Under the pieces are notes generated by a model. The model was not told the origin of the DNA. It did no database searches and worked only from the letters and a program-made list of their open reading frames with translations. Below are positions 6,464 to 43,396 of a stretch of DNA of 64,000 bases, in pieces (within the stretch, counting starts at the first letter, position 1; each line of letters begins with the position of its first letter). This DNA comes from Nostoc sp. S4. Its GTDB lineage: Bacteria > Cyanobacteriota > Cyanobacteriia > Cyanobacteriales > Nostocaceae. The stretch lies in assembly GCA_029379225.1 (NCBI GenBank), contig JAQYWR010000019.1, positions 62,001 to 126,000 of the forward strand, read 5' to 3'. The position numbers were made by a program, and so were the translations under genes.

Positions 6464-6491
6464 AAATCTAACTCGAAATGTTGAAATTCCT

Positions 6492-6652: not shown

Positions 6653-6784
6653 AAGTAGGTGGGTAGGAAAATTTATCGTTGAGGTGAGGCAGGAGGCAGA
6701 GGGCGGTTCTTGCTGGAGGAAAGAGAGTTTTAGTTTAGTTAATCTTTCTTCACATGGTTTGGTTTGATTGTGCCGACTTACTTA
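6653..6784. mobile_element. MITE-like element, AAGTARGTCGG family, copy 2
   Basis: Begins AAGTAGGTGGG (6653) and ends GCCGACTTACTT (6773-6784), with an internal GGCAGGAGGCAGAGGGCGG block and a right part (TTTCTTCACATGGTTTGG) resembling the right part of copy 1. It ends ten bases from the stop codon of the AI-2E permease gene and might contribute to its 3' end. Confidence 0.55.
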
Positions 6785-6793
6785 TTAATAATT

Positions 6794-8422: not shown

Positions 8423-8858
8423 ATGAAACAAGTTTTCTTCTGGGGTTGCTGGTTTATTTCACTTGGTAGTACCGCATTACTATTTTTTTGGTCATTGCCT
8501 ATGTCCCCATTTACACATCCGGGAATTACTGCCAATGAAGCAGTATATTATCTTTTTCCCCATTATGGCTATACGTTGGCTGGCTCTTGCTTGTACTCTG
8601 TTTCTATCAGTAATTGCTTGGGGGCAATATTTGAACTTAGCGACTGGCTCTATGATTGCCCTAGTAATTTTGGTGTTAGTCTTACACTTTGTTTTTGGAA
8701 TAATTAATATTGCAATCATCAATGTTTGGCTTTCTGTCGAACCCATTAAGACACGCGCTACTAACGCCGTTTACGCAGGCATCTATTTTGGATTGCCAAT
8801 GTTTTGGCTATTACTCGTAGCACCCTTAATGCTGAAGGTTACTAATTTCCGTAACTGA
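8423..8858 (+). pseudogene. Small membrane protein gene split by a +1 frameshift
   Basis: An ATG at 8423 with AGGGGA just upstream opens a frame coding MKQVFFWGCWFISLGS, a hydrophobic N-terminus. After about 45 residues (AVYYLFP) this frame turns into non-membrane sequence. The next frame carries on with FPIMAIRWLALACTLFLSV and three further hydrophobic helices to the stop at 8856-8858. Skipping one base in the run CTTTTTCCCCATT (about 8565-8577) joins both parts into one four-helix protein of about 144 residues. The alternative is that only the 8535-8858 frame (107 residues) is translated. The break could be a mutation, a sequencing error in a homopolymer, or programmed +1 slippage at CCCC. 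Function unknown. Confidence 0.55.
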
Positions 8859-9012
8859 TATCAAGTTCGGCTAATTACTCACAATATGGTCGGTTTATCG
8901 CCCTAAGTTGGCGAGTTGTGACTTTGCGCCTTGTCTTTTGTAATTGTAAATGACCAAGAACAAGTAACCAAGGACGACCATAGCAAAAATTTTCACTTTC
9001 TCTAAAGTAAAG

Positions 9013-28919: not shown

Positions 28920-29699
28920 TTACACCAAATAACTCGTATTAGGTACGATCGCAAAAAAGGCATACTCATACCAAGCAGTCCAGATGAAACTGCGAAGCCA
29001 TCGCTGGCGCTTTTCGGGACTCAATTCATACTCAAACGCCCCACGTGCAGGATCGATGGAAGATAGGTGAGAGTTGCAACCGCAACCATGTTGATAGGTA
29101 AAACCATATTTTGAGGCAATGCTTTGCACTTTCATTTGAATGGCAAATACCTTGCCTGCATGGAGTATGGCATCCCAAGCACGCTTGTGTTCTATATCGC
29201 GGGGGTCAAATCGTAAGGCACGTTCTTCAAAAACATCATCGCGATAAATTGGAGCTAAATGCACATGATAGAAGCTGGCAGGCAGTTCGTAGCCAAATTC
29301 ATTGAATAAATCTATACCGATACGAGCTACTTTTACTTGCTCGGCATACTCGATTCCCTTTGATTCCACATCGCGGAGAATTTCTGCAAAATTTGGATAG
29401 CTGTGTTTCTTAAAGTCTTGTCCAAAAAATTCCAAGGTTTCCCACGCAAGCTGTGCAAAGATTTGGGAAAATGATGGTACTAGGTGAGCTAGTTGGGGGC
29501 GATCGCTAAACAAGTCAACGTCACCATGCTCTAACTTGTATAGAAACAACTGTGCCATCTCAACATAAGTTTGCGGATGGGAAAGTCCCACACTCGTGGT
29601 TCCTCTCGCAATCTCTTGCCATATAGGGGGTAGTTGAGAAACGTGAACCGCATTTTCTCCGGCGATGACTGCAACACGAGGAAATTCGAGAAGTTGCAT
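28920..29699 (-). CDS. Hypothetical protein with CGC motif
   Basis: 259 residues from ATG 29699, with GGAGA six bases upstream (the frame also opens at TTG 29705). Soluble and helical. Distinct stretches are FPRVAVIAGENAVHVSQLPP at the start, EFFGQDFKKHSYPNFAEIL, GYELPASFYHVHLAPIYRDD and a Cys/His cluster YQHGCGCNSHLSSID near residue 210. The HGCGCNSH motif may bind a metal. I do not recognise the family. It lies 120 bases downstream of the second NHLP exporter gene on the same strand, so it could be the last gene of the peptide-export operon, but nothing in the sequence proves this. Confidence 0.5.
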   Translation of the reverse strand: MQLLEFPRVAVIAGENAVHVSQLPPIWQEIARGTTSVGLSHPQTYVEMAQLFLYKLEHGDVDLFSDRPQLAHLVPSFSQIFAQLAWETLEFFGQDFKKHSYPNFAEILRDVESKGIEYAEQVKVARIGIDLFNEFGYELPASFYHVHLAPIYRDDVFEERALRFDPRDIEHKRAWDAILHAGKVFAIQMKVQSIASKYGFTYQHGCGCNSHLSSIDPARGAFEYELSPEKRQRWLRSFIWTAWYEYAFFAIVPNTSYLV

Positions 29700-29826
29700 T
29701 GACAATCTCCATTTAAGACTTTAGTGTAATTTACCCTAAGTAATGCCTTCTCTGTATTCTCCACATAATTAAAAAATCTTTGACAGACTGTCTTAGGTAA
29801 AGTGAGGCATGAAGGTTTTCTGGTTT

Positions 29827-32700
29827 CTACGCCATTTGGCGAGCCATTAACTGGGCAAATAAACCCTCAACAGCAGCTAGTTCTTCAAAAGTTCCTTGTT
29901 GTACAACCCGACCAGCTTGGAGTACATAAATACGATGAGCATTGCGGATGGTGCTAAGTCGGTGAGCGATCGCAATTCTGGTAACTTGTAAGTTATCTAA
30001 ACTTTCACTGACAATCGCCTGGGTTTTATTGTCGAGCGCACTGGTAGCCTCATCGAATAACAAAATGCGGGGTTTTAATGCTAAAGCGCGAGCAATCAAT
30101 AACCGTTGTCGTTGTCCTCCAGAAAGATTACTACCTCCTTCGCTGACTACAGTATGCATCTGCATTGGCATAGCGGTGATATCGTCAGCAAACCCCGACA
30201 TCCGCGCCGCCTCCCAGGCTTCATCTAAGCTAAGTTGAGCGCCGCCTGCAATATTCTCGAAAATCGAAGCTGAACTGAGCCGACCATTTTGTAAAACAAC
30301 ACCCAACTGTCGGCGAACTGCATCCACATCTAAGCCAGATAAGTCTTGACCATCGTAGTAAATACTACCTGCTTGCGGAGTTTCAAATCCCAGTAGTAAT
30401 CGTAGAATTGTTGATTTGCCACTGCCAGAACTACCTATCAAAGCAATAAACTCCCCAGGAGCAGCAGAGATACTCACATCATCCAGCGTCAACGGGCCAT
30501 CACTGCGGTAGCGAAAATTAATATGCTCTAAAGTAATATTACCGACAAGCTTACCAGGATCGGTTTTGTACAAATCTACTTCTGGGATGGTTGCCAAAAT
30601 TGGTTGAGTGCGTTGCCATTGGGGGATGACTTGCAAAATCTCTGTAACAGTATTGCTCAGGTTTGTAGTTCCTTTGGTAAAGTTGCTAAACGCTGCATTG
30701 AAAGCGAGAAAAGTGCCCAGAGAAAATGCGATTGTTCCATTCGCCTGAGAATCTTCTAACAGTTTGACAGTAAACCAGAAGAGGATTCCAGAAGTGATTA
30801 TCGGCATTACCGTATTAAAAAGCACAACAACATCTTCTATTCGTTGGGTGCTAAGTTCCAGCTTAATTTGTCGAGTGTAGTTTTGACTCCAAAAAGCGAA
30901 AGCACGTTCTTGCGCCCCAGCAATATGCAATTTAGAGATGCCATTGATAAGTTGCACTGTCTGCCCAAAAATAGTACCTTTGACTTCCAGCAGAGTCCGC
31001 ACTTTAGTTAACAGAAGCATACCAGAGATTGTGGTGAAAGCGATCGCAACTATCGCAACCCCAACGGCAATTAAAGCTAGTTTGTAGTTGTAATAAAATA
31101 ATTGTCCCAAGTAGAACAGCGCAAACAAACTCGTAATCAGATTGATTAAAGTTCTGCCATTGAGTTGGCGGCGAATTGTACTCACCGATGTAATGCGGGA
31201 GAGGAGGTCTCCAGTTGTATATTGTCGGAAAAATGACACAGGCAAGTTCAACAACCGATCCCAGACACCAGCTTGAGTAGATGCATCAGAAGCCGATTCC
31301 ATCCGCAACAGAGCAAACCCTTGTGCTAACCCAAATAAAGCTGTACCCAAAGCTGCAACCAGCAAACCCAGTCCGATTTGCAGTAATAAGCCCTTGTCGC
31401 TATCGGGAATTGCATTGTCTATGATAATTGACGTGGCATAAGGTGTAACCATTCCCAACAGGGTTACAGCAATACCAGTAAATACAATTACTGCCAGACT
31501 TTGGCTATGTCCTTGAAGTGCGAACTTGAGTATATCAATAGCTTGGAGTGCTTTATCCGGCAAAGAGCGATAAAACATATAGGCAACAGGAGCCAACGTT
31601 GCAGCTATCTGCCGATCTACTCTGACACGGGTACGTTCAACGGGGTCAAAAATTTCATAACGAGTTGCACTAATCGGCAGTAGTGCTACTGGGCAGTTAT
31701 CTTGGGTGTAAGCTATTAGAGGGCCACAATCCTTCTCCCACCAGTTATCTCGCAACAATACTCGTCGCATCCGAATCCGTGAAGCTCGGACAATCGCTTC
31801 TAAGGGTTCCTTGAGCCGCTTCAGGTTTTCAGAACGAGACGGAGGGCGAATTTTTATACCCATTGCTCTACCGACTGCACCAGCCGCAACCAACAAAGGA
31901 GTACCTTCATTGAAAAAGTCCCTGGATTGGGAATTCAAAGTCGATGCTAAAGAGCCTATAGCCTCAGCTGTAACTTGATGATTCAGACGTTGGCGATCGC
32001 GCAAGCGGATTATTTCTGCTTGTGCTTCCTGCTCATCTATAATATTGATGCATTGCAACAGTTGAGTATGCAACACAGATAACCCAGCCAGCAAGGTATC
32101 TGCATTTTGGAATTCACTGGTAGTGTAAGTTGTAAGTTGAACTGGCTCTACAGCTTCTAACCACATTTTGTCACTGAGGGGGAAAGTCGCAGTGGTTGTT
32201 AAGGTCAGTTCTTCAAACCCCAGAAAGCGGACAGTCCCTTCAGTCAGTTGTACCCAACAGGTGACACCTGCTTCTGGCTGGAAAGTCTGATTATTGTTTA
32301 GAGAAAATCGCAATCGTCCCTGAGCTTTTAGATGAATTGTTGGGGCGGTAATGTGGGACAATACACTACCGAGTTGTAATAGCCAAGCTTCTATCCAAGC
32401 GATGGCTCTAGCATCTCCACTAGCTACTAACTCCTGAAAACATTCTTGATATATGTGTAGTAATTCAGTCTCCCCAGTGGGTACTGCCAAAATCTGACGG
32501 TGTTGATTAGCAGTTGGAAAAAGTGCTTCTCCTTGACTAATAGTGCATAGATAACGGCGAGTCCCTTCAATGACACCATCTTTAACTGTGACGGCAAATA
32601 AAGCCATAGAGCCAGACTGAATCACCCAAACTCTAGAAGGGTCATCCAGTAGAATCGGTTCATTGCCATTAACTATATAAACTTGCCCTTGTATTAGCAT
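29827..32700 (-). CDS. NHLP-type bacteriocin export ABC transporter, permease/ATPase
   Basis: 957 residues. An N-terminal soluble part (about 1-380) begins with a beta-rich CNB/cupin-like stretch (VYIVNGNEPILLDDPSRVWV). The transmembrane domain (about 390-690) contains LAVIVFTGIAVTLLGMVTPY and the coupling segment VSFFRQYTTGDLLSRI. The ATPase domain (about 720-957) has Walker A IGSSGSGKST, signature LSGGQRQRL, Walker B ILLFDEATSALD and AHRLSTIR. There is no C39 peptidase. This is the second, peptidase-free exporter found in NHLP natural-product clusters, where it pairs with the C39-type exporter and the HlyD protein. It starts 225 bases after the C39 exporter gene; the gap holds a dispersed repeat. 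Probably works with that exporter in moving the matured peptide. Confidence 0.88.
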   Translation of the reverse strand: MLIQGQVYIVNGNEPILLDDPSRVWVIQSGSMALFAVTVKDGVIEGTRRYLCTISQGEALFPTANQHRQILAVPTGETELLHIYQECFQELVASGDARAIAWIEAWLLQLGSVLSHITAPTIHLKAQGRLRFSLNNNQTFQPEAGVTCWVQLTEGTVRFLGFEELTLTTTATFPLSDKMWLEAVEPVQLTTYTTSEFQNADTLLAGLSVLHTQLLQCINIIDEQEAQAEIIRLRDRQRLNHQVTAEAIGSLASTLNSQSRDFFNEGTPLLVAAGAVGRAMGIKIRPPSRSENLKRLKEPLEAIVRASRIRMRRVLLRDNWWEKDCGPLIAYTQDNCPVALLPISATRYEIFDPVERTRVRVDRQIAATLAPVAYMFYRSLPDKALQAIDILKFALQGHSQSLAVIVFTGIAVTLLGMVTPYATSIIIDNAIPDSDKGLLLQIGLGLLVAALGTALFGLAQGFALLRMESASDASTQAGVWDRLLNLPVSFFRQYTTGDLLSRITSVSTIRRQLNGRTLINLITSLFALFYLGQLFYYNYKLALIAVGVAIVAIAFTTISGMLLLTKVRTLLEVKGTIFGQTVQLINGISKLHIAGAQERAFAFWSQNYTRQIKLELSTQRIEDVVVLFNTVMPIITSGILFWFTVKLLEDSQANGTIAFSLGTFLAFNAAFSNFTKGTTNLSNTVTEILQVIPQWQRTQPILATIPEVDLYKTDPGKLVGNITLEHINFRYRSDGPLTLDDVSISAAPGEFIALIGSSGSGKSTILRLLLGFETPQAGSIYYDGQDLSGLDVDAVRRQLGVVLQNGRLSSASIFENIAGGAQLSLDEAWEAARMSGFADDITAMPMQMHTVVSEGGSNLSGGQRQRLLIARALALKPRILLFDEATSALDNKTQAIVSESLDNLQVTRIAIAHRLSTIRNAHRIYVLQAGRVVQQGTFEELAAVEGLFAQLMARQMA

Positions 32701-32750
32701 TTTAGATTTGAAATTTTTGGCGTTGCAGAGAAAGCGGGATGATTTATCTC

Positions 32751-32815
32751 ACGCAGAGGAGCCATTGCGTTGGGCGGGTTCCCCGACTTGAAGCAAGTGG
32801 CGTCGCGCAGAGACG
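32751..32815. repeat. Dispersed GGCGGGTTCCCCGAC-type repeat
   Basis: GCGTTGGGCGGGTTCCCCGA, then CTTGAAGCAAGTGGCGTCGC. This block is a familiar Nostoc repeat and contains a small hairpin around ACTTGAAGCAAGT. It interrupts the gap between the two exporter genes (32701-32925) and might weaken or end read-through between them. Confidence 0.5.
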
Positions 32816-32925
32816 CAGAGAGTATAAAGAGTTTTAGATTTCAATACACAAAATTTCATCCCTTAATTCAGTAACACCAAATTTTTAAACGGTCAGTAAT
32901 TTACTTCTTCCCTTGCTCCCCCTCT

Positions 32926-35190
32926 CTATTCTTCAGTGCTAAGCAAACGCGAATATACACCATCGACTTGCCATAATTCTTTGTGAGTACCTTGTTGTAC
33001 TACCTTCCCACGTTCTAGAACGACGATTAGATCGCAATCACGAATGGTACTTAATCGGTGGGCAACAATAATGCTGGTGCATCCTCGACGGCGGAGATTC
33101 TGGTCAATAATTTGTTCTGTTTCTGCATCTAGGGCGCTAGTGGCTTCATCCATAATCAGGATTGAGGGATTATTCACTAAAGCACGAGCGATTTCTAAGC
33201 GTTGTCGCTGACCGCCACTTAAATTAGCAGCACCTTCTATAAGTTCGGCATCCAATCCGCCGGACATAGAGAAAATTACATCAGCGATCGCCGCATCTTG
33301 ACAAGCCCGCATCGGGCTTTTATCTGGTACAGTAGTATCCCACAGAGTCAAATTGTCCCTAACCGTTCCACCAAATAACAAAATTTCTTGCTCTACCATA
33401 GCAACAGAGTTTGTCAGCAATTGCTGGGGAATTTGTTCTCGAAGTTTTCCATCAAAGTAAATTTCTCCCGTCCAAGGTTGATAAAGTCCACTCACAAGTT
33501 TGGCAATAGTAGATTTACCAGAACCACTGCCACCTACCAAAGCTATTCGCTGCCCTGGCTTAATTAAGAGGTTAAAGTTTTCAATTAAAGGAAGTTCCAG
33601 GCGGCTATAGCCAAACGTAACATTTCGTAATTCGACATACCCCTGCAACTTAGGAACAAGATAAGGAGATGAGGATAATTTTATCTCCTCTGCTCCCCTG
33701 CTCCCCTGCTCCCCTGCTCCCTCAGCCTCCCCATCTCCCCCAATCGGGTTATCTAGCACATCATCAAGGCGAATCAAATTTCCCTCCAATTCTTGAAGAG
33801 TTGTACCGAAGTTGACGAGATTGTTAACAGGCTGTTGGAAACCCAGCATCAAACCTTGAAAGGCGATGAGCATTCCAATGCTGAGATGTCCATCCATTAC
33901 CCGTAAACCACCAACTACTAACAACAACATCGAAGAAAGAGCAGATAAGAGCGTCGGTAAGACTGAGAATGTCTGGTTTGTTACTCCTAGTTCCTGCTGA
34001 GAATTGAGAGCTTTGGTATAATAACCTGACCACCGCGCAAAGAAATCTGACTCTAACCCTGATGCTTTGAGTGTTTCGATACTTTGGAGGGCGGCAATGG
34101 ATAAGCCAGCCGCTTTACCATACTCTTGAATCAATTGTTGGTTAGCATCTACACGTTGACGAGAAATCCACTGCAAGGTTAAAAGGTTCACGGCAGCAAA
34201 GCTAACTACAATCAAGGTAAGTACCCAGTCATATTGCACCATGACTAAGGCATAAAATACCACCATGACTGTATCGACGATTGTAGTTGCCAAACGTCCT
34301 GCCAAAACATCAGCTACTTGGTCGTTGAGATTAGTACGATTACTGATTTCTCCAGCAAATCGTTGAGTGTAAAAGCTAACAGGTAAGCGGAGGATATGCC
34401 ACAGAAAGCGGCTAGACATACCCACAGCTAGTTTGATTTTCAAACGGCGCAGGTAGCGCAACCGTAGTAATGTTAGTGAGCCTTGGAGGATAGCAGCAAC
34501 AACCATTGCCAACAGCAAAGGACGCAACCATAACCGCCGTCCCTGTATCAAGATGTCATCTACAAACACTTGGCTGAACACAGGTATTACTAACCCGATA
34601 ATAGTCAAGAAAAATCCCGCTATTACGCAGTAGAGCAAGACTTCACCTGAACCCTGTAGCCGTGACCACAGAGATAAAATCATGCTGGGTTTGCGACCAC
34701 CTCTGGTAAACTTTGGGCTTGGTTCCATAACCAACACTACGCCAGTATACCCCTCGTCAAATTCCTGTAGAGATACATAACGTGGACCTGTTGCGGGGTC
34801 ATTGATGTAAACCCGTTGTTTAGTCCATCCTTCTACCACAAGGAAGTGATTGAAGTTCCAAAAGACAATATAAGGCGGACGCAGTTCTTGAAGTTGCTTG
34901 AGTTCTTTTTTAAAACCTTTAGCTTCTAGTCCATAGTTTCTCGCAGCCTTGACCATGTTAGATGCCTTGCTGCCATCGCGGGAAACACCACATTCAATAC
35001 GCAGTTGTGGTAATGGTACAATTCGACCATAGTAACCGAGAATAATTCCCAAAGCAGCAGCACCACACTCCACGGCTTCCATTTGCACAAGCGTGGGCGT
35101 TTTTACCCGCAGGTTTCTGGGTGACAGTAGTTTTTGTAAGTACTGCCAAGGATTAATCGGTGTTACTAAAGTAGATTTAGTAGATACCAC
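32926..35190 (-). CDS. C39-peptidase ABC exporter of the NHLP type
   Basis: 754 residues. The N-terminal C39 peptidase (about 30-145) has Cys42 in QMEAVECGAAAL, His115 in NFNHFLVVEGW and Asp131 in INDPATG, a complete papain-like triad. It should cut the precursor after its double glycine. Then come the transmembrane domain (about 175-460) and the ATPase (about 510-754: Walker A GGSGSGKST, LSGGQRQRL, ILIMDEATSALD). Between membrane domain and ATPase is an odd Gly/Glu-rich linker (GDGEAEGAGEQGSRGAEE, about residues 480-500) coded by a purine-rich repeat at 33680-33745. The gene overlaps the end of the HlyD gene by 14 bases, so the two are translationally linked. Function is cleavage and export of the 72-residue precursor nearby; the assignment of substrate is inference from position. 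Confidence 0.92.
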   Translation of the reverse strand: MVSTKSTLVTPINPWQYLQKLLSPRNLRVKTPTLVQMEAVECGAAALGIILGYYGRIVPLPQLRIECGVSRDGSKASNMVKAARNYGLEAKGFKKELKQLQELRPPYIVFWNFNHFLVVEGWTKQRVYINDPATGPRYVSLQEFDEGYTGVVLVMEPSPKFTRGGRKPSMILSLWSRLQGSGEVLLYCVIAGFFLTIIGLVIPVFSQVFVDDILIQGRRLWLRPLLLAMVVAAILQGSLTLLRLRYLRRLKIKLAVGMSSRFLWHILRLPVSFYTQRFAGEISNRTNLNDQVADVLAGRLATTIVDTVMVVFYALVMVQYDWVLTLIVVSFAAVNLLTLQWISRQRVDANQQLIQEYGKAAGLSIAALQSIETLKASGLESDFFARWSGYYTKALNSQQELGVTNQTFSVLPTLLSALSSMLLLVVGGLRVMDGHLSIGMLIAFQGLMLGFQQPVNNLVNFGTTLQELEGNLIRLDDVLDNPIGGDGEAEGAGEQGSRGAEEIKLSSSPYLVPKLQGYVELRNVTFGYSRLELPLIENFNLLIKPGQRIALVGGSGSGKSTIAKLVSGLYQPWTGEIYFDGKLREQIPQQLLTNSVAMVEQEILLFGGTVRDNLTLWDTTVPDKSPMRACQDAAIADVIFSMSGGLDAELIEGAANLSGGQRQRLEIARALVNNPSILIMDEATSALDAETEQIIDQNLRRRGCTSIIVAHRLSTIRDCDLIVVLERGKVVQQGTHKELWQVDGVYSRLLSTEE

Positions 35191-36625
35191 TGACAGACCT
35201 CAAGATAGGCAAAACGAAGGTGATAGGAGCGCGTTCTTCCACCTTGACTCGCACAACAGTGGTAGTTCCAGAAGAAATCTTCAAATGTGGCCCTGTGGAA
35301 GAAGACCATTTGTAACCGCTTGGTGTACTGAAATCTGGCTTCAGGTTGGAGAATACTTGGATCAGACCTTCTTTTTGTTGAGAAACCAGACCTTCCACCA
35401 CTTCTAAATTACCCACCTCGGATGCAGCTGCTTCTTTGGTAATCGGAAACCGGGAGATGCTGGTGACAGTACCCACAATGCCACCAAAACGTTCCCGCTT
35501 CACAGTTTGGGGGGTAATTTGAATTGTCATCCCAGCTTGAATTTTCTTGCCATCCGCAACTGGGAAATAGGTAACCCCAACCAGCTTGCTTTGAGGATTC
35601 TCAGCCTCTATAGTGGCAAGGCGTGTACCTGCGTTGACTACCTGTCCCGGTGTCAAGGTTATTTCTAAAATGCGTCCACTATATTGACTAATAATCTGGC
35701 TGTTATCGCCTAATTGCACTTCTAATTGAGCAATTTGTCGCTTGACTTCTTGAATCTCTTTTTTCCTGGTGGTGGCGTTTTCTAGGTCTTGTTGAGCCAC
35801 AGAAGCTTGTTTGCTGTCCAGTTCTTTCAACTGAGCTTGCAGGTTGGAGATGGTACTGAGGTTTTCACGATAATCTTTTTCGGTTTCGGTTTCCTTAACA
35901 TCCAGTTCCTTCAACTGATTTTGGATATCAGCGATTTTTTCTAAGTTCTCCAAATATTCCTGTTTTGCCTTAAGAGCTTCATCACCGGAAATCGCACCTT
36001 CTTTTTTGAATAGCTGTCTGCGAATTTCCATTCTCTGGAGGAAAATTGGAGTCAGAGCTTGGGCTTGATGAAGGCGTTGCTGCAAGCCTTGGCGTTGCTG
36101 CCCAGTCGAGGTATTACCTTTGGTTTTCAACAGAGGCGTTATCGCTTGCAGTTCTAATATACGTTGCTGGAGGTAGTGGCGTTGTTGGGATTGCGATCGC
36201 TCCTCCTGTTGGAGCCTTTGCCCTTGCAGCGAACCTACCGCCTTGTCTTGTGATTGTAGTTCTGTAAGTTTAGCTTGCTGCTGTTGCAATTGCTTGCGGA
36301 GTTCAGCTTGGTCAATTGTTGCCAGTACTTGCCCTTTTTTGATGACATCTCCAACTTTGATATTAAGAGCCATTAACTGTCCAGCACTTTTTGATTGCAG
36401 GGGTACAACATTACTTGGGTAAATCAGTACACCCTGACCTTCGACGGTGATGGGGATGCGTCCGTAAATGCTCCAGATAACGCCTACTCCGACGATAGAA
36501 CCCAAGGCGACAAGAGGTAACCAACTTCTGGGGCTAACTACCTGCATGAGTTGGTCTAGTCTTTCGGGCGATGACAGACGCTCTAGGGATTCTTTGCGGA
36601 ATATACTACGTTTTTGGTGGAGCAT
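35177..36625 (-). CDS. HlyD-type membrane fusion protein (NHLP secretion)
   Basis: 482 residues. Short cytoplasmic N-terminus, one membrane segment (about 35-55, WLPLVALGSIVGVGVIWSIY), a lipoyl-like part (QLMALNIKVGDVIKKGQVLA), a long periplasmic coiled coil rich in Gln/Leu/Glu (about 110-300), and the second lipoyl half (GRILEITLTPGQVVNAGTRL). A beta-barrel end follows with VVRVKVEERAPITF. This is the adaptor that connects an inner-membrane ABC exporter with the outer membrane. Overlap of 14 bases with the C39 exporter and position behind the radical SAM gene place it in the same transcription unit. Confidence 0.88.
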   Translation of the reverse strand: MLHQKRSIFRKESLERLSSPERLDQLMQVVSPRSWLPLVALGSIVGVGVIWSIYGRIPITVEGQGVLIYPSNVVPLQSKSAGQLMALNIKVGDVIKKGQVLATIDQAELRKQLQQQQAKLTELQSQDKAVGSLQGQRLQQEERSQSQQRHYLQQRILELQAITPLLKTKGNTSTGQQRQGLQQRLHQAQALTPIFLQRMEIRRQLFKKEGAISGDEALKAKQEYLENLEKIADIQNQLKELDVKETETEKDYRENLSTISNLQAQLKELDSKQASVAQQDLENATTRKKEIQEVKRQIAQLEVQLGDNSQIISQYSGRILEITLTPGQVVNAGTRLATIEAENPQSKLVGVTYFPVADGKKIQAGMTIQITPQTVKRERFGGIVGTVTSISRFPITKEAAASEVGNLEVVEGLVSQQKEGLIQVFSNLKPDFSTPSGYKWSSSTGPHLKISSGTTTVVRVKVEERAPITFVLPILRSVSGIY

Positions 36626-36944
36626 TTACATCTGCTACTTCAATCTTTAAATTCATATCCTGCACTGTTTTGATTTACCTACCTAACTCACTTAGGAATG
36701 AATTCCAAGGCTAATAGCTTCAGTATATTTTAATCGACTACAACCCTTCCTTAATGATCTAAAGACAACTTTTATTGTCAGTCTTAGAACTAATCTTGAA
36801 GTGATTGTAGAATTAGTACAAGATGTGAGTAAACAAATACCTACTAACTTAAAAAAAGCTTTTTTGGGAGACTTTTGAATCTCTAACAATTCTTGAAATC
36901 GCCAAAATCAAGCATTTTTATCATCTAGATGATGCTATTTCTTG
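36626..36944 (-). other. Gap between radical SAM and HlyD genes
   Basis: 319 bases with no supported gene; a 65-codon open frame (36692-36889) has no ribosome-binding site and no family resemblance. A separate promoter for the export genes could lie here. No terminator seen. Confidence 0.3.
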
Positions 36945-37982
36945 TCACTTAATAGTATCTTTCTTAATTGGTGGCAGACCAACAAGGGGACATCCTAGTG
37001 CAGCAGGGTCAAGGGTTTCTATACCACGTACCCAAGGAGCAAGACGACCTGGGATTACTTTAAGTGTACCATCAGGTTGTAAAGTTGCAATCTTATTCCG
37101 TTCATCGTAGAGAGCTACAGTACACTTTCCTACATCGCCATTGGAACGGATCAGCAAAGAATTGGGTTGCGCTGCATAACAAACAAAATCATCGCTCATT
37201 AAATTATTTTGTGTTGAGGAAATATTTTCACCAAATAACTTATTTTGTAGATATTGATTTGCTTCTTTTTTTTCTACTTCAGAAAAAGTTTTGAATGAGG
37301 AATCGTTAGGCCCACCTAAATGTTCAATTGCTTTAAAGAAAATAGAAAATCTTAAATCAGTTAAAAATTCTCTTTTTATATCTTCAAGTAATGGAGTAAA
37401 AAGATGAAGTGTTTCAACAGTAAAGTGAATACGAAGTAGAATAGAAACTTCTAAAGAGCTATCACGAATTGCTAATAAATTAGCCCAAATTTGATCATAT
37501 GTACCACTTCCATCGGCACGAATTCGGCTCTTATTATGTACATCGTATGGCCCATCAATGGAAATTTGATAAGCTCTTACACCCAGATCTGCCAAAAGAG
37601 AAGCAGTATTGTAGTCTAATAAATAACCATTTGTCGTCATAGTCCCTGCATAAAGTAAGTTAGGGTACTTTTTAGATAGCGCTGTAGCATAATCAGAAAT
37701 CTCTAATACAATATCTTTTGCTGTTAGAGGCTCGCCACCAAACCATGATATCTTCAAATAATCTAAATTATTAGTACAGCGCTTTTCCAGTAATGATTTT
37801 ATCCCTAGTATTGTTTCTTTCTTCATCCGTCCTGCTGCAAAATCTTCATAGCAGTAAGTACATCGAAAATTACATTTTTCTGTTGGTAAAATAATCAATT
37901 GAAGATATTTATTTGATAGCCATTTTGCAGAACGAATCAAATCTTCAGAATTTGTAACTTTATTAGAGATAGTGTAAGTCAT
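36945..37982 (-). CDS. Radical SAM peptide maturase
   Basis: 345 residues. The radical SAM motif CNFRCTYC supplies Cys37, Cys41 and Cys44 for the 4Fe-4S cluster; ISWFGGEPL (about 78-86) binds SAM, and TMTTNGYLL and ISIDGP complete the barrel. The C-terminal part has three further Cys: Cys268 (FVCYAAQPN), Cys287 (NGDVGKCTVAL) and Cys331 (LGCPLVGLPP). This resembles the first half of a SPASM auxiliary-cluster domain, but the closing CxxCx5C segment is missing: the protein ends soon after GCPLVGLPP. It lies 160 bases after the precursor gene, so it most likely forms a crosslink (thioether or carbon-carbon) in that peptide. Which residues are joined is not known. AT-rich codon use compared with neighbours hints at transfer. 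Confidence 0.88.
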   Translation of the reverse strand: MTYTISNKVTNSEDLIRSAKWLSNKYLQLIILPTEKCNFRCTYCYEDFAAGRMKKETILGIKSLLEKRCTNNLDYLKISWFGGEPLTAKDIVLEISDYATALSKKYPNLLYAGTMTTNGYLLDYNTASLLADLGVRAYQISIDGPYDVHNKSRIRADGSGTYDQIWANLLAIRDSSLEVSILLRIHFTVETLHLFTPLLEDIKREFLTDLRFSIFFKAIEHLGGPNDSSFKTFSEVEKKEANQYLQNKLFGENISSTQNNLMSDDFVCYAAQPNSLLIRSNGDVGKCTVALYDERNKIATLQPDGTLKVIPGRLAPWVRGIETLDPAALGCPLVGLPPIKKDTIK

Positions 37983-38142
37983 TGGTTAAGCCTTTCGATT
38001 GAAAATGTACGGTACAGAAAACAAAAGTAAAATATTTAATTTTAAATACTTCACTATTTTATTCTTTATCTATTAAAGTAAGAGTAAATAATATATTGAT
38101 TACTTACTCATTATCTCTAAGTATTAAAAGCTTTATGAGCAA

Positions 38143-38361
38143 CTAACAACCACAACCATTGCAGCCGCTACCGTTGCTATCTGCCTCTTTCATACTAGCT
38201 TGGAGACCTCCAGCTATTGCATCAAGCTCTTCCGGGCTTAACTCCTGAAGTGCCTCGGCTAGTTTTGAATCTTTAATTACTACTTCTCCATTTTCGTTAA
38301 TGGAAATAGTATCATTAAGTTGTTGATTTTTACTTTCAGGGTTTTCATTTGGAATTGACAT
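38143..38361 (-). CDS. RiPP precursor peptide, double-glycine leader, Cys-rich core
   Basis: 72 residues from ATG 38361, chosen because AAGGAG stands five to six bases upstream; the frame is open 19 codons further but without a ribosome-binding site. The leader (1-52) is acidic and helical and ends LSPEELDAIAGG, the classic NHLP/Nif11-like cleavage site. The remaining core of 20 residues ends in SNGSGCNGCGC, with Cys67, Cys70 and Cys72. Expected path: the radical SAM enzyme modifies the core, the C39 exporter cuts after Gly52 and secretes it. The spacing Cys-x2-Cys-x-Cys allows thioether crosslinks or metal binding. I know no described family with exactly this core. First gene of the apparent biosynthetic unit. 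Confidence 0.85.
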   Translation of the reverse strand: MSIPNENPESKNQQLNDTISINENGEVVIKDSKLAEALQELSPEELDAIAGGLQASMKEADSNGSGCNGCGC

Positions 38362-38680
38362 ATTTACTCCTTGTGTCTTGGCTAAAATCAGTTTGTTTCG
38401 AGTTAAATACTCAAACATATGTGTACATTTATCAATAACTTGAACTTAATAATTTAATAGCTTAAAAATTATCAAATCAAGTAAATAAAGATTTTTTTAA
38501 TGTACAAAAATACTTGATTTTGCTAATTGGCTAACTCTCACATCCTGTATTTTTATAGAATAAGCCTTCAAGCTAATATAAAAAATGCACAATTTTTAGA
38601 TAAAACTAGATTTTTGGGTTTTGCTTTTTATTACTATGAATTCACGAGCCGATAAGCTGACGCGCTCTCTACCCAGGAAT

Positions 38681-38935
38681 TCAACTTACTGCTAACCGTC
38701 CCAATATCCAATCAAATTTTTTCCTTGCGATCGCCACATCATCTAAAACGCTATCATTTGACTCATCGTCATATTCCGCATTCTCAGTCAATGACAAACC
38801 TTGGCTATAAATTAGCCTCCCATAACCAAGCTGACTCAGCCTTCCTTGTAATCTTTGAGAAAGCAAAGTAGCGATCGCACGAGAACAACGCGAAGCCAAA
38901 ATAATATTCTGCAACAAAGCTACTTCTGAATACAA
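38681..38935 (-). pseudogene. Decayed C-terminal copy of the tandem CNB protein
   Basis: 84 codons ending KKFDWILGRLAVS, matching the last 78 residues of the protein encoded at 39438-40532 (LLSQRLQG, QLGYGR, QGLSL, ILxRLxVS shared in order). The N-terminal two thirds are missing and there is no good start. DNA just upstream of it (ATGCACAATTTTTAG...TTTTGCTTTTTGTTAC) is also repeated beyond its end at 38585-38640, so a block was duplicated and then lost most of its content. It lies between the precursor gene and the intact CNB gene. Confidence 0.65.
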
Positions 38936-39079
38936 TGCACAATTTTTAGGTAACAGTATATTTTTTTATTTTGCTTTTTGTTACAGTACTCGCACAATAA
39001 AAGTAAAGCGGCAAGCAAAAGCAAGATTCTACTAACATTCGACTTTCTCTAATAACAAAAAAATGGTTATAAAATTAGA

Positions 39080-39256
39080 ATGAATAAGCCAATTCCTGAA
39101 AAATTATCTAGTCAAATCGACGCAGGCGTTAAACTTGCTATTGCTAAAGCTATTGAAAGACACCGCCGTTTAGGAGAATCTATTAGTATTTGGCAAGATG
39201 GTCAAGTTGTTACATTAACCGCCGAACAAATTCCTCCTCTTAAATCAAATGACTAA
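39080..39256 (+). CDS. Small conserved cyanobacterial protein, antitoxin-like size
   Basis: 58 residues: MNKPIPEKLSSQIDAGVKLA, then IAKAIERHRRLGESISIWQD and GQVVTLTAEQIPPLKSND. I recognise the pattern IDAGVKxAIAKAxERHRxLGESIxIWxDGxVVxLxAxxIPPL from many cyanobacterial small proteins; function unknown. It has a long N-terminal helix and a short two-strand end. It runs against the direction of the surrounding cluster and overlaps the next small ORF by eight bases (ATGACTAA), an arrangement often seen in toxin-antitoxin pairs. Confidence 0.65.
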   Translation: MNKPIPEKLSSQIDAGVKLAIAKAIERHRRLGESISIWQDGQVVTLTAEQIPPLKSND

Positions 39257-39383
39257 ACTATTTTCCCTTGTTCCAGAGCAAATCAGAGATAAACTAATAC
39301 TGACGGAAGATAAAAAACTACTTCAACAACAAACCATTAGTCTTTACCGGAAGTGTAGCAATAAATCAATACTCTGCATCTAA
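39249..39383 (+). CDS. Small ORF overlapping the preceding one
   Basis: 44 residues: MTKLFSLVPEQIRDKLILTE, then DKKLLQQQTISLYRKCSNKS. The start codon lies inside the end of the previous small gene, so it would be translated by coupling. Only a helical pattern is visible and no family. It may be the shortened remainder of a longer partner gene. Confidence 0.4.
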   Translation: MTKLFSLVPEQIRDKLILTEDKKLLQQQTISLYRKCSNKSILCI

Positions 39384-39437
39384 ATACTGACACAATATTG
39401 CCAGTGACATTAAGTAATGGGGGCTATATCCAACAAT

Positions 39438-40532
39438 TCAACTTACTGTTAACCGTTCCAATATCCAATTAAATCTTTTACCCGCTAAGGCGACATTATC
39501 TAAAATACTATCATTCAATTCATCCTCATATTCTACATTTTCAACTAAGGATAAACCTTGGTGATAAACCCGCCTACCATAACCAAGTTGATTCATCATT
39601 CCTTGTAATCTCTGAGAAAGCAAAGTAGCGATCGCCCGATAAAAACGCGAAGCAAATCCTACATCTTGCTGTAACTTTACCGCCATTTGTTGTCGGTCAA
39701 TTGATAACACAATTGAATCTTCCATCGTTTTAACTGTTGCAAAGGGTAGGCGACCATCAATGAAGGGTGTTTCACCGATGATTTCGCCTTTGGATAATCT
39801 TGCTATTTCTCTAGTAGAAATTTCATTACCTTCTATCGCTGCAAAAGCACGCGCCAAGGGGTTACATTCATCTTCACTAATAGACAGAGACATTATTCCA
39901 TCTAGGAGAATATATAGTGCATCCACAGTCCCTTTTTCATGGATAAGTGTAGTATTAGCAGGAATTTTTTCCTGAGTTCCACAACCCATCAGCCAATCTA
40001 TATCGCTATCATGTAATTCTCCTAGTATAAATAGCACATCTCTAATTGGTTGACCTTGAGCAATTTTGCTACGACCAAGCTGATTGATAGTGCTTTGGAT
40101 TCTATTTGAAAGTATAATGGCGATCGCCCGATAAAAGCGCGAGGCAAAGCCAAGATCTTGCTGCAATTTTGCTGATAATTTCTGTTGAGGAATTGACATC
40201 ACCAGCGACTTTTCTACAGCCTGAACAGTAGTGGCTGTTGGGCGAGTATCTACGAAGGGGATTTCTCCCACTACTTCACCACTAGATAATCTCGCAATCT
40301 CCCGACCTAAAATTTCATTACCTTCAATAGCTGCAAAAGCACGAGTTAGAGGATTGTTATCTGGTTGAGAGATAGTGACTTTTAAAATCCCATCTAGTAG
40401 GATATATACGAAATTATTAGCTTTTCCTGATTGGATGAGTATAGTACCAACAGCAATTTCTCGACGATGACCTGTAGCAATCATCCAATCAATGTCACTG
40501 TTAGTTAACTCTTTAAGTAGAACTTCCGTCAT
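39438..40532 (-). CDS. Tandem cyclic-nucleotide-binding-like protein
   Basis: 364 residues made of two CNB-fold units (about 1-165 and 170-330) plus a short C-terminal helix pair. Each unit has the strand pattern ILIQSGKANNFVYILLDG or TLIHEKGTVDALYILLDG and a phosphate-cassette-like loop (GEIPFVDTRPTATTV; GETPFIDGRLPFATV). The second loop lacks the usual Arg-Ala-Thr spacing, so ligand binding is uncertain. Both units share the insert NPLxRAFAAIEGNE, showing internal duplication. No DNA-binding helix-turn-helix is present. Similar CNB parts sit at the front of cyanobacterial peptide exporters, so it may regulate the export or maturation unit downstream. It is followed by a decayed copy of its own C-terminus. 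Confidence 0.75.
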   Translation of the reverse strand: MTEVLLKELTNSDIDWMIATGHRREIAVGTILIQSGKANNFVYILLDGILKVTISQPDNNPLTRAFAAIEGNEILGREIARLSSGEVVGEIPFVDTRPTATTVQAVEKSLVMSIPQQKLSAKLQQDLGFASRFYRAIAIILSNRIQSTINQLGRSKIAQGQPIRDVLFILGELHDSDIDWLMGCGTQEKIPANTTLIHEKGTVDALYILLDGIMSLSISEDECNPLARAFAAIEGNEISTREIARLSKGEIIGETPFIDGRLPFATVKTMEDSIVLSIDRQQMAVKLQQDVGFASRFYRAIATLLSQRLQGMMNQLGYGRRVYHQGLSLVENVEYEDELNDSILDNVALAGKRFNWILERLTVS

Positions 40533-40591
40533 AAATTAATTCCTAGTGGATCGGAACATTAATAGGAAATGATTGTTAATTGTTCATATTG

Positions 40592-41377
40592 CTAATAACT
40601 CACAACTAAACGAGTAATCTGTTCTGTAATCCACTTAATTGTCTGAGTGATGGGATGACCAGAGTAACGCAAACAAAAAAGACCTTTACTTGCTAACTGC
40701 ACCATATCTTCTGAAAGCGGCAAAATTCCAGCTACAGGGACATCATAGATTTTTTCTACCTGTTGTTTCAAATCTGCAAAATTGAAGGCTGGTAGAACCT
40801 TATTGAGGACTAATAGTATTTTTGCTGCTTTCAATTTTCGAGCTACATCCACTGTCACAGCAGTTCCCTGGAAGTCTTGACTGTCTGGACGAAGAATAAT
40901 TAGTAAAACATTAGAAATACCGATGGAAACTAAGGTTTCTTCATTCAAACCAGGGTGAGTATCAATTAATAAATAGTCCAATTTCAAACTACGGATAAGT
41001 TCTTGAAATCCATCGTTGAGCCGGACTACATCATACCCCTCACGTAAAACTCTAGAAATTTCAGTAGCTTTAATACTAGAAGGAATCAAATAAAGACTGC
41101 CCTTAACTGTATTTATATTACCGTGTGAAATTAAAGTATCGGTGACATCGTAAGCAGTATCTTTGATATTACAACGCCCCCATAAATAATCATTGAGGGC
41201 AAGTTCCATCTTGTCTTCTTTCAAACCAAAAATAATGTGAATTCCTGGTGATTGGATGTCAGTATCAATAATGCCTACACGTTGCCCTTGTAGCGCCATA
41301 GTAGCCGCTATATTGGCAATTATGTTTGATTTGCCAGTACCGCCACGAAATGAATGAACAGCGATAATTTGTGCCAT
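40592..41377 (-). CDS. MinD/ParA-like P-loop ATPase
   Basis: 261 residues from ATG 41377 (GAGG seven bases upstream; the frame opens six codons earlier). Walker A is HSFRGGTGKSN at 8-18, the deviant type in which the signature Lys is replaced by Arg; GIIDTDIQSPGIHIIFGL follows. LLIDTHPGLNEETLV carries Walker B, and LVLNKVLPAFN the guanine/adenine-contact segment. ATPases of this group position proteins, plasmids or membrane complexes. It lies 21 bases after the Cache-HAMP gene and 59 bases before the CNB gene, so all three are probably one operon and may form one membrane-linked switch. Confidence 0.82.
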   Translation of the reverse strand: MAQIIAVHSFRGGTGKSNIIANIAATMALQGQRVGIIDTDIQSPGIHIIFGLKEDKMELALNDYLWGRCNIKDTAYDVTDTLISHGNINTVKGSLYLIPSSIKATEISRVLREGYDVVRLNDGFQELIRSLKLDYLLIDTHPGLNEETLVSIGISNVLLIILRPDSQDFQGTAVTVDVARKLKAAKILLVLNKVLPAFNFADLKQQVEKIYDVPVAGILPLSEDMVQLASKGLFCLRYSGHPITQTIKWITEQITRLVVSY

Positions 41378-41398
41378 AGGTAACCTCATACTCAAGAG

Positions 41399-42799
41399 TT
41401 AGAAATTAGAAGTTATTCTCTGTTTGCCACTTGTACCATCAGCACTAACTGATATCAATGGCTCACCATTGCGCGATCGCTCTTTCAAAGACTGCACCTG
41501 AATTTGCAATCGTTGGTAGTATTCTGTCTCAGTTTCGACTTTTGTTAGTTTGTGTTCTCTAAGTTTTTGAATCTTATTTTGTATTTGTTGAAAGTGTTCG
41601 TTTTCGGTAATTTCTGTGACTTGGCTGGCTCTTTTAGTTTCGTCAATCTCAATCCGAAGTTCCTGGACTTGCATTTTCAACTGCTGATCTCGCATCCTTA
41701 CTTGTTCGGCCATTTCTAAGAAAACGCGCACCAATTGACCGATATCATCTTGGTTATCAGTAAATTTCGCTAAATTATCATGTAGTTCTAGTACATGAGA
41801 ATCAAAATCGTCATGTTCTAATGCTTGGGCTGCGCTGGTGAGGGCGTGAATCGGTCTAGAAATACTCAGCCCCAGAAGCAGCGCGATGATTGCCATAATT
41901 ATTCCAACAAATAATACGCTGCTGCTATTTAGCCAAATCAAGCGATTCAATGGAGCAGTAAATTCTGCTTTCGGTTGGCTGACTGCCAATACCCAAGGTT
42001 GGGTCGCTAAAGGTGCAAAGCCGACTATCTCGGTCATGTAGGAAGGCAATTCAAAGGTAACGTGACCTGGCTCTTTAGCTCTCACCATCACCTTTAGCGT
42101 CTGAGTTGGTGTCACAAAGTTATGGTAGATAAAAGATGGATTGCTGAGACTGATGATTACTCCATGTTGGTCAATCAGGAAGGCATTGTTTTGAAAGCTG
42201 GCGTGCAACGCATTAATAGTCGTCCAAATATTTTCTCCTCGAATCTTAATTAGAGTGGTTCCTACAACCTCTCCATCAGGCGATCGCACCGGTTGGGAGA
42301 AGAACATTTCTGGACTTCTTGTGGTTGTTTCCTCCACCAAGACGCTAAAGCCGTAAAAGTTACTTTGAATAGTGGAATATTGACCAACGAACTTTGGATC
42401 TGTGGCTGCAACGCACTCACCATTTCTATCCATCAGCAAGACACTATCAATATCTGGATGAGAACCAAGGACGCTTTGTAATGTTAGTTGTAGGTTTGGG
42501 CGGTAATCTTGCTTTTCTAATGTATTAGCAGCGAGGAAATCTTTCACATGGCGATCGCTGCTGATTTGGAGAACCACACGATGGCGATCGATAATTAGCT
42601 GGTCGAAGCGACTAGCACTACTGCTAGCTAACAGTTCGAGTTTGCGGTATTCGCCAGCCTCCACACTATTTAAACTCTGTTGCAGATTGTAGTAAGCAGT
42701 GAAGATCATCGGTATTAACACAGCACAAACCAGCGCTACCGAAATTTTGGCAGCGATCGACCAGGCAAGGGGGTTAAATAACCGATAAAAATGCTTCAT
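41399..42799 (-). CDS. Cache-HAMP membrane receptor without output domain
   Basis: 466 residues. Membrane segment 1 at about 15-38 (AAKISVALVCAVLIPMIFTA), an extracytoplasmic double-Cache sensor to about 285 (SVLLMDRNGECVAATDP, ENIWTTINALHASFQNNAFL), segment 2 at about 290-312, a HAMP domain with SISRPIHALTSAAQALEHDD, then a coiled coil to about 440. The chain ends in a short Ser/Thr-rich tail. No kinase, cyclase, GGDEF or methyl-accepting part follows, so the signal must leave through protein contact, most simply to the ParA-like ATPase encoded 21 bases downstream. Cache domains usually bind small molecules such as amino acids. Confidence 0.82.
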   Translation of the reverse strand: MKHFYRLFNPLAWSIAAKISVALVCAVLIPMIFTAYYNLQQSLNSVEAGEYRKLELLASSSASRFDQLIIDRHRVVLQISSDRHVKDFLAANTLEKQDYRPNLQLTLQSVLGSHPDIDSVLLMDRNGECVAATDPKFVGQYSTIQSNFYGFSVLVEETTTRSPEMFFSQPVRSPDGEVVGTTLIKIRGENIWTTINALHASFQNNAFLIDQHGVIISLSNPSFIYHNFVTPTQTLKVMVRAKEPGHVTFELPSYMTEIVGFAPLATQPWVLAVSQPKAEFTAPLNRLIWLNSSSVLFVGIIMAIIALLLGLSISRPIHALTSAAQALEHDDFDSHVLELHDNLAKFTDNQDDIGQLVRVFLEMAEQVRMRDQQLKMQVQELRIEIDETKRASQVTEITENEHFQQIQNKIQKLREHKLTKVETETEYYQRLQIQVQSLKERSRNGEPLISVSADGTSGKQRITSNF

Positions 42800-42955: not shown

Positions 42956-43396
42956 TTAATCAGGACTATTGGCTACTAGTCTAGCTACCTGGGTCTTTCT
43001 CCAAGTTTGAGGTGTAATCCCGTGATGTTGGCGAAACTGGCGAAAAAAGTAACCTTCATGTTGGTAGCCAACGGCTTGAGCGATTTGACTCACACATTGA
43101 TCGGTATCTAGAAGTAAAGCGCGTGCTGCTACCATCCGGCGCTCAGCAATCCAATCGTTCACTGTATGTCCCGTATTTCGTCGTACTAAGTCCGTCAAGT
43201 AAGCCGCACAGTAACCAACAGCAACAGCCACATCAGATAAACTAATAGGTTGGTTATAATTTGCCTCAATAAATTGAAAGACCTGACTGAGTTGAGGATT
43301 ACTAGGAAATATCGATTGTACATTGTCTGGTATTGCAGCATCAGCAAGGGCTTGTTCTGCAACTGTGTGAAACTGAGCAGTATAATAGTTATTCAT
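42956..43396 (-). CDS. AraC-family DNA-binding protein without sensor domain
   Basis: 146 residues. The last 100 are a complete AraC-type double helix-turn-helix: FIEANYNQPISLSDVAVAVG starts helix-turn-helix 1, and SQIAQAVGYQHEGYFFRQFR is helix-turn-helix 2, followed by HGITPQTWR. Only about 45 residues precede it, too few for the usual ligand-binding domain. It lies upstream of, and in line with, the Cache-HAMP gene (156-base gap), so it may regulate the cluster. It could also be a truncated regulator. Confidence 0.85.
   Translation of the reverse strand: MNNYYTAQFHTVAEQALADAAIPDNVQSIFPSNPQLSQVFQFIEANYNQPISLSDVAVAVGYCAAYLTDLVRRNTGHTVNDWIAERRMVAARALLLDTDQCVSQIAQAVGYQHEGYFFRQFRQHHGITPQTWRKTQVARLVANSPD

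Follow-up and report, generated by a model that had tools for sequence, protein, structure and literature searches.

Introduction

Bacteriocin clusters of the NHLP/Nif11 type in cyanobacteria combine, according to passages in two reports (PMC2887384, PMC3140520), a HlyD-type adaptor, a C39 exporter, a second ABC subunit, a protein with two cyclic-nucleotide-binding (CNB) domains and a precursor peptide with a double-glycine (GG) leader. All these parts recur in a locus of Nostoc sp. S4 that lies in a 64,000-nucleotide stretch of DNA (the window; contig JAQYWR010000019.1, positions 62,001 to 126,000), where they are accompanied by a radical S-adenosylmethionine (radical SAM) maturase and preceded by a dCache-HAMP receptor and a MinD/ParA-like ATPase. 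Proteins with two CAP_ED domains are mentioned for group V clusters in a passage of Wang 2011, but the words ParA and HAMP are absent from the main text of that report (PMC3140520), whereas both gene types are present here; in the pertinent part of Haft 2010 (PMC2887384) a HAMP protein is mentioned just once, in a row for Microscilla within a profiling table. A further difference is that the precursor encoded in the window exceeds no NHLP, Nif11 or CTB cut-off. With a probability of roughly 60%, the locus is interpreted here as an NHLP-type export locus for a ribosomally synthesized and post-translationally modified peptide (RiPP), which holds one exchangeable cassette and is governed by a receptor-ATPase-CNB module. 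This module would belong to a wider system in which a common stretch of sensor proteins (the tail) is associated with a MinD-like ATPase. The novelty would lie in the receptor-tail-ATPase pathway, while the peptide cassette is of a known kind.

To our knowledge, the outputs of HAMP receptors are kinases, cyclases, phosphatases, GGDEF/EAL domains and chemotaxis domains. Activation of a MinD-fold ATPase by the cytoplasmic tail of a membrane protein is presumably realized in the CapA1/CapB pair, in which the partners of CapB are, as we assume, Wzz-like chain-length proteins. CapA1-CapB chains (PDB 2ved, 3bfv) match the profile of the present ATPase, which differs in lacking a C-terminal tyrosine cluster and in having sensors as partners. 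MinD/MinE and FlhG/FleN are like it in fold, and a complex of MinD with a short MinE peptide has been solved (PDB 3r9i), but the ATPase treated here falls far under the MinD equivalog cut-offs, has an arginine at the position of the signature lysine and belongs to a family mostly without a membrane-targeting extension. HetC, a C39 peptide exporter of Nostoc, resembles the present system in its dependence on a CNB domain, which binds ppGpp and is required for function according to passages of PMC10986499; that domain is fused in HetC, whereas the CNB domains here form a tandem protein of their own, encoded after a receptor and an ATPase. MinD/ParA-like domains also occur in NTP-dependent conflict systems, and peptide-processing systems of actinobacteria are sometimes linked to a CRP-like cNMP-binding factor; in the portions of PMC7159879 that describe them these domains are called inactive, whereas the Walker motifs are invariant here; HAMP and CHASE2 are absent from the text of that paper, and no tail is mentioned in those portions. 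A HAMP-linked sCache_heme domain from Pseudomonas binds NO, as stated in part of a preprint (PMC12889525) whose text does not contain the word MinD, and sister loci of the one treated here encode tail-bearing Tll0287-HAMP proteins with CxxCH. No description of the receptor-ATPase part or of the tail turned up in the open-licence PMC literature.

Linkage of the control genes to peptide export

When GTDB contigs were scanned with the CNB protein, 64 loci were obtained, each of them cyanobacterial by title. In the 37 loci with a CNB protein of at least 60% identity (L001-L037) the ATPase gene lies upstream without exception, and a Cache-HAMP match is present in 36, the remaining locus starting immediately ahead of the ATPase. 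In 30 of the 37, HlyD lies downstream in the same orientation; five of the other seven reach contig ends, one has HlyD on the opposite strand and one a HlyD fragment. Among the 27 more distant CNB loci an ATPase match was found somewhere in nine. An equally strict linkage is seen in a panel of 145 genomes of the window's family, where ATPases of at least 69% and CNB proteins of at least 60% identity were counted as close: a CNB gene lies within 3 kb of each of the 27 close ATPase places, and each of the 27 close CNB genes has the ATPase as a neighbour. Cache-HAMP orthologues (E <=1e-30) are confined to the 24 genomes holding these 27 module places, apart from an 84-residue fragment in a genome without an ATPase match (G491), and they adjoin the ATPase except at assembly breaks (on another contig in G427, split over two in G461). 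Attachment of the receptor-ATPase-CNB part to the export locus is conserved far beyond chance. An earlier note on this DNA had proposed a RiPP system with an attached control module; the locus is borne out, and so is, by the 27/27 linkage, the attachment, but not the parts of that proposal which made the module specific to one precursor-maturase pair and left the receptor without an output.

One related locus (L105) has the same order with another sensor. A Tll0287-HAMP protein with the tail, the ATPase (65%), a single-CNB protein, HlyD and a C39 exporter (cut by the locus end) are encoded in one direction, and Nif11-type precursors with a maturase of the same radical SAM family as in the window divergently from them. 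The Tll0287 domain keeps the motif CLRCH. This arrangement suggests that one sensor can replace another without a change in the set of tail, ATPase, CNB protein and exporter.

A tail shared by sensors and its ATPase

The receptor had been described as lacking any output domain, but it carries a conserved tail of about 43 residues that is its likely output. When 37 regions around ATPase places were fetched from 194 cyanobacterial genomes and the unlike neighbours of the ATPase compared, proteins of very different build were found to have a common C-terminal or near-terminal stretch, L..qv..L.IEIDe.Kr..qV.EI.etdyFq.Lq.kA..lR. A profile begun from eight tails and iterated detects it in Tll0287-HAMP, CHASE2, dCache-HAMP, dCache-HAMP-PAS, PAS-PAS, Tll0287-PAS, FHA-GAF and CNB proteins; in the CHASE2 proteins it is followed by roughly 100 or more further residues. 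The tail of the window receptor matches this profile with an E value of 2.9e-19, the only match in its genome at E <=1, and a second, independent profile with 6.3e-19. It has invariant columns in the receptor alignment, and in the AlphaFold model its first half continues the coiled coil up to a break near residue 400, with two short helices following, at low confidence. The idea of a receptor with a truncated kinase was dropped, as the aligned orthologues are no longer and have the same ending. An open reading frame (ORF) with the tail lies no more than 2 kb away from 18 of 35 ATPase genes (identity 44% or higher), and somewhere in the fetched stretch for 23 of them.

Tail and ATPase co-occur almost perfectly. 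At thresholds of E <=1e-40 for the ATPase and E <=1e-3 for the tail, each was found in 29 of the 194 genomes, the same 29 in both cases, and in none of the other 165. Because the panel itself had supplied 13 of the 16 seeds of the first tail profile, and a few terminal letters in three rows were guesses, the second profile was built independently from 12 exact tails taken only from named contigs outside this panel; it finds the same 29 genomes. In nine of them (G008, G036, G085, G089, G105, G109, G119, G170 and G179) none of the tail genes listed is close to any ATPase gene listed, so that linkage alone does not explain the co-occurrence; in G008, G105 and G170 the separation rests on different contigs. 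A second panel of 252 genomes contained the ATPase in 104 and the tail in 106 (both in 101, ATPase only in three, tail only in five, neither in 143; Fisher 7e-60, uncorrected for kinship). As 17 of its ATPase-positive genomes were also in the first panel, the newly drawn genomes account for 87 with the ATPase, 89 with the tail and 84 with both. The eight discordant genomes are mostly in many contigs, and presence and absence are mixed inside families such as f1, f5 and f8.

The two parts also occur fused. Of six ATPase genes fetched that lie in frames of 700-872 residues, four have an in-frame tail before the ATPase (E <=7.5e-11), and in the other two a degenerate tail, missed by the profile, can be read by eye. 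HisKA and receiver domains were found by Pfam in all three of the long frames scanned. Outside the cyanobacteria, an ATPase orthologue of Deinococcus sp. KNUC1210 (57.5%, plasmid records) is followed after 0.6 kb by a tail protein (E 7.8e-18), a single small gene separating the two, and that of Rhizobium jaguaris (53.6%, plasmid records) has a tail ORF directly upstream (E 1.6e-13). As judged from such matches, the proposed tail/ATPase system is common among cyanobacteria and extends to Deinococcus and Rhizobium, and the locus of the window falls within it, having a tail match and an ATPase orthologue adjacent in the same genome.

The ATPase has the Walker A motif HSFRGGTGKSN, with arginine in place of the signature lysine, and RGGTGKSN, DTD and DTHPG are invariant in all 23 rows of its alignment. 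A C-terminal tyrosine cluster is, as we understand it, the mark of bacterial tyrosine kinases (BY-kinases; CapB/Wzc), and the single terminal tyrosine of the ATPase is not conserved. Against the septum-site MinD families it reaches 50 bits (TIGR01968, cut-off 212.9) and 86.7 bits (TIGR01969, cut-off 201.75), and most alignment rows end at the last helix, without the membrane helix extension of MinD. Its classification as MinD or as a BY-kinase was dropped in view of these scores, the lack of the extension in most rows and the absent tyrosine cluster. The nearest PDB fold to its AlphaFold model (predicted local distance difference test, pLDDT, 88) is MinD (1hyq), then FlhG, with FleN among the matches and McdA lower down. 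A plasmid-partition ParA is judged unlikely because the ATPase is paired with sensors, although no search was aimed at ParB genes. No histidine kinase or receiver match was obtained in Pfam for the Cache-HAMP, ATPase and CNB proteins, which do not form a two-component system by this measure.

Some loci of the ATPase family show further features. An ORF of about 100 residues lies close to the ATPase in L071 (9375-9674), and similar ones in L074, L075, L080, L091 and L095; the protein from L071, the one scanned, is winged-helix-like by weak Pfam matches and is possibly another partner. Very large frames flank the ATPase in L071 and L074. Tail-bearing proteins stand beside the ATPase in L073, L074, L079 and L081, with CHASE2 in both of those scanned (L074, L079) and further basic K.K..RR repeats in L073, L079 and L081. 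A second tail-bearing ORF accompanies five of the six fusion genes (L112-L117; HisKA, receiver, tail and MinD-like ATPase). In L118 and L120 the Deinococcus and Streptomyces members of the family are part of STAS/SpoIIE/GlgX gene clusters, which may mean another output in these bacteria.

Exporter, CNB protein and exchangeable cassettes

The exporter genes are those of an NHLP export cluster, with scores well above the family cut-offs for HlyD (TIGR03794, 547 against 156 bits), the C39 exporter (TIGR03796, 1186 against 853) and the 957-residue exporter (TIGR03797, 1050 against 709). We take the TIGR03797 subunit to be the partner of TIGR03796 in NHLP systems. By these family assignments the three proteins are the usual NHLP trio, and what had been called a second NHLP-type exporter is indeed an exporter gene, now better described as the subunit partnering the first. 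The CNB protein belongs to TIGR03896 (416.5 bits, cut-off 161) and has two cNMP_binding stretches in Pfam. Transport combined with a CNB protein is an already known kind, the name of TIGR03896 itself being tied to bacteriocin-type transport. Both repeats contain GE...R, which we assume to be the phosphate-binding cassette motif of CNB domains; the residues of this cassette-like motif are kept in most close relatives and in fewer distant ones. A DNA-binding domain was not matched in the CNB protein by Pfam.

The 20-residue precursor core, LQASMKEADSNGSGCNGCGC, has three cysteines. Thirteen distinct precursors of a single family were identified by a pattern search, all of them in loci that contain this radical SAM family; their leaders resemble INENGELV...LQELSPEELEAIAGG, and their cores vary but have two or three cysteines in all 13. 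None was found by the pattern in the radical SAM loci L021, L025, L068 and L105, the last of which has Nif11-type precursors instead. The sole listed family match of the window precursor is to the CTB family NF038167, at 20.3 bits against a cut-off of 32. In the maturase, six cysteines (37, 41, 44, 268, 287 and 331) are invariant in all 16 sequences. No named radical SAM/SPASM maturase family was matched over its cut-off among the best 25 of 68 families, the best-scoring being TIGR04463 (125.9 against 525 bits). From the cysteines of the precursors and the kinships of the maturase, the product may be predicted to have thioether-type chemistry, with cysteine crosslinks as in ranthipeptides or sactipeptides.

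The maturase family occupies 13 places in 12 of the 145 family genomes, two of them with internal stops, and eight of the 11 intact genes sit in modules, seven of the 27 modules containing this maturase. The notion that the precursor and its maturase occur mostly apart from the control genes is not borne out by these figures. Outside the modules the maturase occurs in L105, in L106 at a contig end and in L107, which has a precursor and no NHLP-type HlyD match. Conversely, at least 13 of 44 module loci contain this maturase and at least 11 contain LanM, both being lower bounds as loci are cut, and plasmid p057_G of Nostoc sp. C057 carries the same module with Nif11/radical SAM and TOMM genes. 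Precursor and radical SAM maturase are one of several exchangeable cargo cassettes. The earlier claim that the three control genes belong to this one pair is not supported, as the same genes accompany LanM, Nif11/radical SAM and TOMM cargo.

Downstream of the complete CNB gene, orphan copies of its 3' end (mostly residues ~285-364) are repeatedly seen, in the window and in L002, L003, L006, L010, L015, L019 and L025; those of the window and L019 precede a precursor gene. They are possibly scars of cassette exchange; duplication and decay would explain them equally.

The sensor domain of the window

We take (Y)AFR(D/E)YF to be the ligand-loop motif of DctB-type sensing. The Cache domain of a full-length orthologue matches DctB (3e4o, 1.6e-10), its best solved sequence relative, including a YAFRDYFR segment, and the same structure ranks third in the fold search with the receptor, behind two receptor models. 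DctB is a sensor of succinate and other C4-dicarboxylates (PDB 3e4o). It differs from the present receptor, which has no kinase and in which the ligand-loop motif is missing: the pattern was not found in any of the six frames of the window, and DctB-type C4-dicarboxylate sensing cannot be assigned to it. Of 43 loci with a Cache match, 29 contain the pattern in six frames.

Two module genes present in L007 are missing from the window. One (5102-7705) encodes a protein of 867 residues with hydrophobic stretches and no Pfam match (TM867), the other (8579-9868) a DUF7005 protein with the HExxH-type motif HECTH. The TM867 gene is present in 27 of 44 module loci. It and the Cache motif are both present in 25 loci and both absent in 12, and four and two loci are discordant. 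The 12 loci lacking both comprise 11 with a full-length Cache gene, the window included, and one cut contig. Joint loss of the two was perhaps a single event, but loss of TM867 as the explanation for loss of the motif was dropped. The sensor of the window may read a new ligand, or none, its signal having been changed or lost.

Proposed mechanism and alternative explanations

HetC needs its ppGpp-binding CNB domain, and this, together with the linkage described above, leads to a proposed chain of signal, receptor tail, ATPase, CNB protein and exporter, every biochemical step of which we infer. A signal at the sensor would travel along HAMP and the coiled coil until it reaches the tail. The tail might then dock on the ATP-bound dimer of the ATPase, much as the contact helix of MinE does on MinD and, presumably, the tail of CapA1 on CapB, and switch it. 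The ATPase would act on the CNB protein. Working in trans, the CNB protein could gate the C39 exporter, a part possibly played in HetC by its fused CNB domain, and the exporter would cut the leader at GG and secrete a thioether-type peptide. In wider terms, the data probably reflect an undescribed class of signal output, in which interchangeable sensors (dCache, c-haem Cache, CHASE2, PAS, GAF/FHA, CNB) control a dedicated MinD-like ATPase through a common helical tail, and which in Nostocales is wired via a nucleotide-sensor-like protein to the export of RiPP cassettes. The action of the tail on the ATPase, and the recruitment of both to peptide export, are suggested by linkage, co-occurrence and fusion. 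If true, HAMP receptors would have an additional output, in the form of a common tail and a MinD-like ATPase dedicated to it, and a role would be found for those cyanobacterial receptors whose sequence stops without any output domain of a known type. For peptide natural products it would represent a control point common to clusters of different chemistry, and tail sensor, ATPase and TIGR03896 together would be a marker for finding such clusters.

Several observations do not fit this interpretation easily. CNB genes of less than 60% identity have an ATPase within 3 kb in only 11 of 75 cases, and most genes of the ATPase family are not near peptide genes (65 of 140 ATPase-family places have a CNB gene of the window's family within 20 kb). 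The expectation that the control genes occur mostly without peptide genes thus holds for the ATPase family at large, though not for the Cache-HAMP orthologue, and the peptide role would be a special use. The interpretation in the earlier note is partly supported and half right: the module is better seen as a local use of a general sensor-tail/MinD-like ATPase system. That general system has gaps of its own. No tail gene was found for 12 of the 35 ATPase genes of at least 44% identity within the fetched stretch of up to about 20 kb; G339, a single contig, has the ATPase without a tail at the cut-off; the second panel includes five genomes with the tail and without the ATPase; and the one examined of five distant Streptomyces relatives (36%) has no tail match nearby. 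The receptor model has a pLDDT of 64 overall and below 60 over the tail. In the alignment, the window receptor and its closest relatives are without AFREYFR, and about 20 further residues beyond this gap are missing from the window receptor. The CNB and precursor genes are separated by a 1-kb gap with ORFs on the opposite strand.

The fold of the ATPase, nearest to MinD and FlhG and more remotely to McdA, would also suit a positioning system of the MinD, McdA, FlhG or ParC type, in which the ATPase places the exporter, or receptor arrays, at a particular site of the cell, the tail serves as cargo or anchor held at the membrane by the receptor, and no on/off signal is given. The tail, however, is found on many types of sensor, some with only cytoplasmic-kind Pfam matches (FHA-GAF, PAS-PAS, CNB), it follows receiver domains in fusions, an arrangement that indicates signal input, and the membrane helix extension is lacking in most ATPase rows; positioning is considered unlikely. 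Control of transcription rather than export, the ATPase acting with the upstream AraC-type gene as an anti-activator like FleN on FleQ, is suggested by that gene, by the small winged-helix-like proteins close to other members of the ATPase family and by FleN among the fold matches. Yet several module loci (e.g. L007 and L018) keep the CNB protein, HlyD and the C39 exporter without an AraC match, and the CNB protein is without a DNA-binding domain match, which makes this explanation rather improbable.

It is also conceivable, if scarcely probable, that the window copy is decaying, with its sensor pocket deleted, the TM867 and DUF7005 genes absent, the CNB gene partly duplicated and broken, and plus-strand ORFs inserted. 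The orphan CNB fragment and the joint absence of AFREYFR and TM867, which the window has in common with the other loci lacking both, agree with decay. All core frames of the window are nevertheless open, nothing is missing from the tail and ATPase motifs, and ten other loci share the short form of the sensor, which has thus persisted. Regulation of cassette export by the receptor-ATPase-CNB module is preferred over these alternatives.

Gene organization of the locus

ORF calls and domain scans confirmed the gene set, order, positions and common direction given in the earlier note, all on the minus strand (Table 1), including the ATPase start 21 bases past the receptor stop, the 72-residue precursor with its GG leader and 20-residue core, and a 14-base overlap of the HlyD and C39 exporter genes, located at 35177-35190.

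Table 1. Features of the export locus and its surroundings in the window.
Feature	Position	Strand	Evidence or remark
AraC-type helix-turn-helix protein, 146 residues, possible regulator, upstream on same strand	42956..43396	-	HTH_18 1.3e-21
dCache-HAMP receptor	41399..42799	-	dCache_1 1.8e-14, HAMP 5e-7
Receptor tail, 43 conserved residues (374-416 of 466), candidate output docking on ATPase	41552..41680	-	
Partial second tail-motif copy, TETEYYQRLQIQVQSLKER	41477..41533	-	tail profile, 20 bits
MinD/ParA-like ATPase, 261 residues	40592..41377	-	domain match; AlphaFold fold search
Tandem CNB-domain protein	39438..40532	-	TIGR03896, 416.5 bits
Two overlapping small ORFs, 58 and 44 residues, between CNB and precursor genes	39080-39256, 39249-39383	+	
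Orphan CNB 3' fragment (residues ~285-364)	38681..38935	-	TIGR03896 52 bits; tblastn 67%, 9e-28
Precursor, 72 residues	38143..38361	-	leader ...INENGEVV...LQELSPEELDAIAGG; core LQASMKEADSNGSGCNGCGC at 38146-38205
Radical SAM maturase	36945..37982	-	Radical_SAM 9.5e-17; six invariant Cys
HlyD-type adaptor	35177..36625	-	TIGR03794, 546.8 bits
C39 peptidase/ABC exporter	32926..35190	-	TIGR03796, 1186 bits
NHLP ABC second subunit, 957 residues	29827..32700	-	TIGR03797, 1050 bits

The ATG of the ATPase at 41377 is preceded by GAGGT, the mechanical ORF call beginning at a TTG at 41395, and AAGGAG precedes the precursor ATG at 38361, so that both starts fit a ribosome-binding site. The two small plus-strand ORFs (39080-39383) resemble an inserted gene pair, and together with the broken CNB 3' copy they make a single transcript across all genes doubtful. 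A promoter and terminator scan was uninformative, with 27 promoter-like sites (24.3 expected) and three terminator-like sites (6.5 expected). By tblastn the AraC-type gene has matches in many related loci, though not in all. Downstream of the exporters, on the minus strand at 28920-29705, lies an ORF of 261 residues that is without a Pfam or NCBIfam match and has HGCGCN in its C-terminal part.

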